A DNA stretch of 64,000 bases, taken from Utricularia gibba (taxonomy: Eukaryota; Streptophyta; Magnoliopsida; Lamiales; Lentibulariaceae). The position numbers were made by a program, and so were the translations under genes. This document shows, one piece after another, positions 36,345 through 38,719 of the stretch. A model generated the notes under the pieces. That model was given only the letters and a program-made list of their open reading frames with translations. It did not search any database and was not told the origin of the DNA. The stretch covers positions 1,426,001-1,490,000 of the forward strand of contig NEEC01000011.1 of the NCBI GenBank assembly GCA_002189035.1. Reading direction: 5' to 3'. Within the stretch, counting starts at the first letter, position 1; each line of letters begins with the position of its first letter.

Positions 36345-38719
36345 ATGGACAATTTCAAAGGTTAGACTCCTTAGTCCGTGTGTTTTTTGCAAGAATTGCC
36401 CATTGCATGTGCTCACTAATCCCTGTTTCGATGGATGTGTTTGCTGAATTTGGGTGTTTAGCTTTATTTCTCGAGTCATTCGCGGTCTCTTGCAGAGATA
36501 AATGAGATTTTTGTGGCTACCCAGAAAATAGTTTTAAGTTGCACATGATGTGCATCTCTGTGAGACGTTTTAACTATGTTATCCATTTGAATCCATCCTG
36601 GCTTCTTCTTGGTTTCTGTTATGTGACATGACAGGGAGAGAGATCGTATCAATAGAAATTTTCTATTTCTGTGCCTTTCTGCTTGTGCTTTTGGTCTTCT
36701 TGAATCCTGCGGCTTCTCTCACTGGCGTTTGTGTGTTTTTCAGTTGTTGAATCAAAAGATGGGGCTATCCCGGGTGCTGCTGTGTTTACAGCTCAACAAG
36801 AAGGTGATCAAGAGATTTTCTTACTACAATCAGCGATTTTGATCCATGAAGTGCATGATTGTGTTTTTCTGATACGTTGTGTTCCAATCATTTTTTAAAA
36901 AAATTAAGTTTCTTAGTGTACGCACTTGCGTCATTTTTTTAGTGAATGCCCTCCTGCTGTTGTTTCAGCACTTTCTTTTAAATTTGTGCTGTTAGCTGAT
37001 TTATATATGTTTATCAGTTGTTCAAACTGAAGATGGAGTTATCCCGGTTCCTGCTGCGTTAGCTGCTCATCAAGAGGGTAACCACTTTCTGGAATGCCGG
37101 TTGGCATCTGATGATTAGGAGATTTTCACCTTTGGGAATTCATTGTTTAATTGGTTTACATCACAAAAACAAACTAAGATCGTAGTCTTCGCAGTAGTGC
37201 TAATAATATTCTATATTCACCCTATTTTCAAAGGTTTCAAAAATGGAGTCATATAATATTCATAAAGCTTTGCTTAAGAGCTGTGGAGTTCCTTTTAGAT
37301 CCATTAGCAGTTTTAGGATAATTTGATTCTTTCTTTTTGTGTAATAAAGGATGGTTAATGTAGAACTCTACTCTTCCGAAGTTGTTTAATACCCTTACAC
37401 TCCATTTTCACCATTTCTTTTGATTATCAAGCATCATCTTTCTGTAACGTCGTGCTGCAACTTTTTGCACAGTTGTTGAAGCAAAGGATGGAACTATCTC
37501 AGTCTCTTCTGCATTTGCTGGCCATCAAGAAGGTAATTTTTCGGTTCTGCTGTCAATCCTTGTTGGTCCTTGTGAGTGTATATGTCACAGCCTGTGTACG
37601 TTGAATTCATATAAGCTTACTAGATTAGAGCCATGGGTAACAAAGAAATGCATTCATTTAGTTTCTTTGTAAAGAAACATAAAAGACCTTCGATTGATTG
37701 AAATGAAAAGCAAGATGCTTTTTCTGTGCTTTCCCACAGCCAAAGAGATCATCATTGGTTTGAGCTTTGTCCATAATCTCGATCATGATATTTTTCAATT
37801 TGGAAAGCGAATATGTATTCTCATGCTTCTCTTTATGCTACTTTCTGTGATCCACTTCCGTCTCCTCTGTATCATGTGAAAGCTAAAATTAGATTGCGAC
37901 TGTGCATCTTTACTGTTGAATGATTCTTGAGCATCTCATTCTCTGGTTTTGCAGAAAAGTCTTGATTTTGGTCGGCATTATATGATTATTTTCAACACGT
38001 GTTAATAATCCGGCATGTGATTCATGCGATGAACAGAAAATTTTACATTCTTGCTTTGCAGCTGTTCAGGATAGAGACCACAAATTCTTGACTAAAGCAG
38101 TGGAAGAGGCCTACCGTGGGGTAGAATGTGGGGACGGAGGTCCTTTTGGCGCTGTTGTTGTTCGTGATGATGAAATTGTTGTGAGCTGCCATAACATGGT
38201 TCTCAAACATACAGATCCCACTGCTCATGCTGAGGTTACAGCAGTAAGGGAGGTTAGATTCATTTCCAACCGAAACAGAACTCTTCTAAGTTCACCATGA
38301 TCTTCAACTCCATACCAAATCTTAACACATTTTCTTTGGTTTCAGGCTTGCAAAAAGCTTAACAAGATTGAACTCTCTGACTGCGATATCTACGCCTCCT
38401 GCGAGCCCTGCCCGATGTGCTTTGGTGCTATCCATCTTTCTAGAATCAAGGTGTCTCTCTAACTTGCTTCCAGACTTGCCATTTCTCTACACTAACCAGC
38501 CATCTCTGCCTTTGGTATTTATTCCCTCAGAGACTGGTGTATGGCGCCAAGGCTGAAGCCGCGATCGCAATTGGGTTCGACGACTTCATTGCTGATGCAC
38601 TGAGAGGTACGGGCTTTTACCAGAAAGCAAACCTGGAGATCAAGCAAGCCGATGGAAAAGGAGCCATTATTGCAGAAGAGGTGTTCGAGAACACAAAGGC
38701 AAAGTTCACACTGTACTGA
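36345..38719 (+). CDS. GSDA: Guanosine deaminase (CMP/dCMP deaminase fold), triplicated exon 2, 226 aa
   Basis: Zinc deaminase converting guanosine to xanthosine in plant purine breakdown. Exons: 36345-36360 (MDNFK), 36744-36803, 37018-37077, 37473-37532, 38062-38252, 38346-38450, 38531-38719; all GT-AG and in frame. Zinc ligands are in PTAHAEVTA (HAE) and CEPCPMC (PCxxC). The end [16 protein letters not shown] fits the family. Exons 2, 3 and 4 are each exactly 60 nt, phase 1-1, and homologous: [13 protein letters not shown]..., [13 protein letters not shown]... and [13 protein letters not shown].... Arabidopsis GSDA has one such segment and 185 aa; with one copy this protein would be 186 aa. 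The third copy is most like the usual sequence. Any one, two or three copies could be spliced without shifting frame. Confidence 0.9.

Follow-up and report, generated by a model that had tools for sequence, protein, structure and literature searches.

A tandemly repeated 60-nt exon in the N-terminal arm region of a predicted guanosine deaminase gene of Utricularia gibba

The 64,000-nt stretch of Utricularia gibba DNA analysed here (the window) contains a gene at 36345-38719 on the + strand that is predicted to encode a plant guanosine deaminase (GSDA), in which a short first coding exon is followed by three homologous 60-nt exons (A, B and C) and then by the catalytic exons. As adjacent homologous exons of equal phase within one gene, A, B and C constitute a tandem exon duplication. 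The reading that we favour, with about an even chance of being right in full, is an old double tandem duplication of the arm exon in which C is the original and all three copies would normally be included, giving a 226-aa enzyme.

The gene was identified by its zinc deaminase core (PF00383, E 1.1e-27), which aligns end to end with the crystal chains of Arabidopsis GSDA (AtGSDA; PDB 7dbf, 7w1q and others; E about 1e-90) and shares with them the zinc motifs and the C-terminal Tyr. The coding part of exon 1 (36345-36360, +) supplies the ATG, MDNFK and the first base of the next codon, and ends in phase 1 at the donor AAAG/gttaga. The HAE zinc/proton-shuttle motif lies in the catalytic exon at 38062-38252 (+), which matches AtGSDA 7dbf and PF00383, and the CEPCPMC zinc motif lies in that at 38346-38450 (+), assigned by AtGSDA alignment and PF00383; the two motifs align with the H-A-E and C-x-x-C of AtGSDA. 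The last coding exon (38531-38719, +) ends in KFTLY and a stop codon, aligned with KFRLY of AtGSDA, in which the C-terminal Tyr185 has a substrate-sealing, catalytic role (PMC9739398). A search of viral contigs for relatives returned only three distant deaminases, which match the core, and no second GSDA gene, retrocopy or alternate haplotype was found in the genome searched, the assembly of which is possibly incomplete. Upstream of the gene, ATGGCCAATTTCAA at 35970-35983 agrees at 13 of 14 positions with the beginning of GSDA exon 1, ATGGACAATTTCAA; it has AT-rich surroundings and no GT donor at the matching place, and the similarity is therefore probably due to chance.

Among the neighbouring genes, an intact single-exon cytochrome P450 gene (39071-40579, +; 502 aa; PF00067, E 6e-69) starts ~350 bp past the GSDA stop codon on the same strand, and a 240-aa ORF antisense within it (39268-39990, -) is probably a by-product of codon usage. 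An N-myristoyltransferase gene (26922-28250, +; 442 aa; PF01233/PF02799) and a gene for a PLP-dependent enzyme (2754-4247, +; 497 aa; PF00291) are both apparently intronless.

Exons A (36744-36803, +; ttttcag/.../gtgatc), B (37018-37077, +; ttatcag/.../gtaacc) and C (37473-37532, +; tgcacag/.../gtaatt) are each 60 nt long, preceded by CAG and followed by GT, in phase 1-1 and free of stop codons. Their homology is evident from 46 identical nucleotides of 60 for A/B and 43 for both A/C and B/C (72-77%), a level that none of 100,000 shuffles approached (none above 32/60), and from 10, 10 and 11 identical residues of 20 for A/B, A/C and B/C, respectively. A profile built from the three exons and run against the 64-kb window recovered exactly three copies (E 1e-19 to 2e-20; next best E 2.2), with no fourth or decayed copy found there, and no copies were found elsewhere in the genome searched. 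The introns between A and B (214 nt) and between B and C (395 nt) are, like all introns of the gene, GT-AG. All eight inclusion patterns stay in frame, with predicted products of 166, 186, 206 and 226 aa for zero, one, two and three copies, respectively. An earlier note on this DNA had described three homologous, open, frame-keeping 60-nt exons of phase 1-1 with good splice sites, together with these intron lengths and the 186-, 206- and 226-aa products, and recalculation reproduced its coordinates, phases and exon, intron and protein lengths exactly. In-frame ATG codons are absent from A, B and C, which must therefore be internal exons, ruling out their use as alternative first exons.

Comparison of lengths indicates that a single arm segment is the usual state of GSDA. 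The one-copy form of the window gene would have 186 aa, relative to 185 for Arabidopsis GSDA, in which the last residue is Tyr185 and the short crystallised form spans Ser29-Tyr185 (PMC9739398). In the alignment, Arg30 and Tyr186 of the one-copy form correspond to Ser29 and Tyr185 of AtGSDA. With 185 aa and a core that starts at Ser29, AtGSDA can accommodate no more than one 20-residue arm segment, whereas the window gene has three arm exons, and the claim of the earlier note that one N-terminal segment is usual holds on this ground. One arm segment is probably general in plants, as the length argument suggests and as that note states.

Copy C is most likely the original, judged by its match to a solved relative, with A and B as extra copies upstream of it. 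The N-terminal SSGFAGHQQAVLDSDHKF of PDB 5jfy (a close relative, deposited as a deoxycytidine deaminase) aligns to the end of copy C and the following exon, and the chain runs upstream as SSGFAGHQQAV, which matches the C-terminal half of C; the same stretch reads AAVFTAQQE in A and PAALAAHQE in B. As the best match among the copies to the arm of 5jfy, C is regarded as the canonical copy. The 5jfy chain includes no more of the arm than its end and therefore gives no copy number.

Comparison of the copies and their flanks indicates that the duplication of the arm exon is old. Nothing alignable is left in the introns before or after A, B and C, in a comparison for which the simulated power to detect intron homology was 0.88-1.0 at a divergence of 0.32 and 0.31-0.95 at 0.48, and which presumes an ordinary tandem duplication that copied flanking intron too. 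With the exons at 23-28% raw divergence and intron homology lost, the exons appear to have changed less than their flanks. Variable columns are fewest at second codon positions (4 versus 8 and 11 at the other two; P = 0.035). In a survival simulation that uses assumed (guessed) indel rates and serves as a guide only, the probability of two extra copies remaining intact by chance was about 3e-6 at d about 0.5 per copy (0.008 with substitutions alone), and at an exon-like d of 0.16 per copy it was 0.15 without indels and 0.012 with them. The amino-acid differences between the copies are in line with the unconstrained expectation given the number of base changes (P 0.2-0.6), and NG86 estimates of dN/dS, from only 20 codons, are about 0.8 for A/B and about 0.36 for A/C and B/C; selection at the amino-acid level on A, B and C was not demonstrated with these 20 codons. 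Retention of the copies as exons is supported, and retention of a particular peptide is not.

Under the favoured reading, the short exon that codes for the N-terminal arm in plant GSDA would have been duplicated in tandem twice, long ago, with A and B added upstream of C and all three remaining usable exons. Default splicing would then join exon 1, A, B, C and the exon at 38062, placing an arm made of a threefold imperfect 20-residue repeat ahead of an unchanged catalytic core, and occasional skipping would give a shorter enzyme that is still in frame. We infer that all three are included in transcripts. Introns of 214 and 395 nt permit sequential splicing, and full inclusion is favoured by the lack of any visible feature that would force exclusivity and by donors that are among the best of the gene. 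With approximate matrices (general plant frequencies, not trained on this genome), exons A, B and C have donors ranked 5, 8 and 1 out of 145 GTs across the gene, comparable to the donors of the other exons, and acceptors ranked 13, 9 and 22 out of 134, compared with 2, 1 and 4 for the three catalytic exons. Partial skipping would be consistent with the weaker acceptors of the three copies. The arm is missing from the crystallised AtGSDA core (Ser29-Tyr185), so its lengthening should be tolerated, and a longer arm may be near-neutral or may tune only stability or interactions.

A possible but doubtful alternative is that only C is regularly used, with A and B as relic or cryptic exons, mostly skipped, and the 186-aa enzyme as the usual product. 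The canonical sequence of C and its donor, the best in the gene, are consistent with this, as are the differences of A and B from C at about half their residues each and an amount of amino-acid change between copies that fits absent protein constraint. However, A and B are both open, exactly 60 nt long and bounded by intact splice sites, even though the introns have decayed beyond recognition, and the acceptor of C is the weakest of the three on the approximate matrix. Regulated or leaky cassette splicing, in which zero to three copies would be included in tissue-dependent mixtures to vary arm length on one core, is rather unlikely; it is compatible with the shortness of the exons, with acceptors weaker than those of the catalytic exons and with the in-frame outcome of every combination, but the case comes from a single genome and lacks evidence of a regulatory element or of conservation. 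Also unlikely is the broader proposal that the three exons form an array, mutually exclusive or regulated, through which this plant housekeeping enzyme would exchange or extend its N-terminal arm, tuning stability, partners or location by tissue.

Exon clusters are usually predicted to be mutually exclusive on the basis of equal length, equal phase and homology. A, B and C share all of these, and each single-copy form would be about as long as AtGSDA, as expected if exactly one of the three were chosen to give three 186-aa isoforms differing in the arm. Such strict exclusion is nevertheless improbable, given that steric exclusion would need introns shorter than the 214 and 395 nt present, that all introns are GT-AG and so do not mix spliceosome types, and that 60-nt exons cause neither frameshift nor decay of double inclusions. 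No mechanism blocking double inclusion was found in this one sequence, in which trans-acting regulation would be invisible. The introns share no selector-like sequence, ungapped inter-intron helices of the docking/selector kind are no stronger than in shuffles, and among six tests of whole-intron duplex energy the i1-i4 pair was beaten by only 1 of 60 shuffles; a missing predicted pairing in a single sequence counts only weakly against exclusion. Among plant splice events with peptide support, mutual exclusion is also rare, with 11 cases in 2442 in Arabidopsis (PMC13136898). An assembly artefact, for which nothing was found to speak, can be practically dismissed: any two copies differ at 14-17 of 60 bases and their introns show no relationship, the same divergence of copies and introns that supports the earlier argument against an assembly stutter.

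The overall effect of a tripled arm is probably modest. In AtGSDA it is mainly core helices alpha2, 3, 4 and 6 that make up the dimer interface, and the solved chains begin after the arm, indicating that the arm is not needed for fold or dimer; its removal for crystallisation suggests that it may be unstructured. GSDA is located in the cytosol and nucleus (PMC8616923), and the arm copies, read by eye and not with a predictor, contain acidic residues and many alanines and have no transit-peptide character. The suggestion of the earlier note that repeated arms could alter oligomerisation or targeting is thus not supported, the interface lying in core helices of chains crystallised without the arm and the arm having no obvious targeting character in a cytosolic and nuclear enzyme. 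Either change from a longer arm is therefore unlikely, and stability or partner binding may be affected slightly.

Tandem exon duplication is a known phenomenon, of which the GSDA case is a new instance. Those of animals have been studied extensively, and those of plants seem little documented. Animal tandem exon duplications and mutually exclusive clusters (PMC9013439; Dscam, PMC1397879) are likewise made up of neighbouring homologous exons matched in length and phase, whereas here the gene is from a plant, the introns are without selector-like repeats and exclusivity is improbable. A literature search covering few subscription papers found no report of exon duplication in GSDA and none relevant to GSDA splicing, and a peptide search of papers found nothing. 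If all three copies are simply included, the gene would indicate that exon duplication can enlarge an arm lying outside the core and leave the core undisturbed, which would be ordinary, and interest stays modest short of transcripts with regulated choice. Differential use of the copies would provide a compact natural test of the function of the otherwise ignored GSDA arm.
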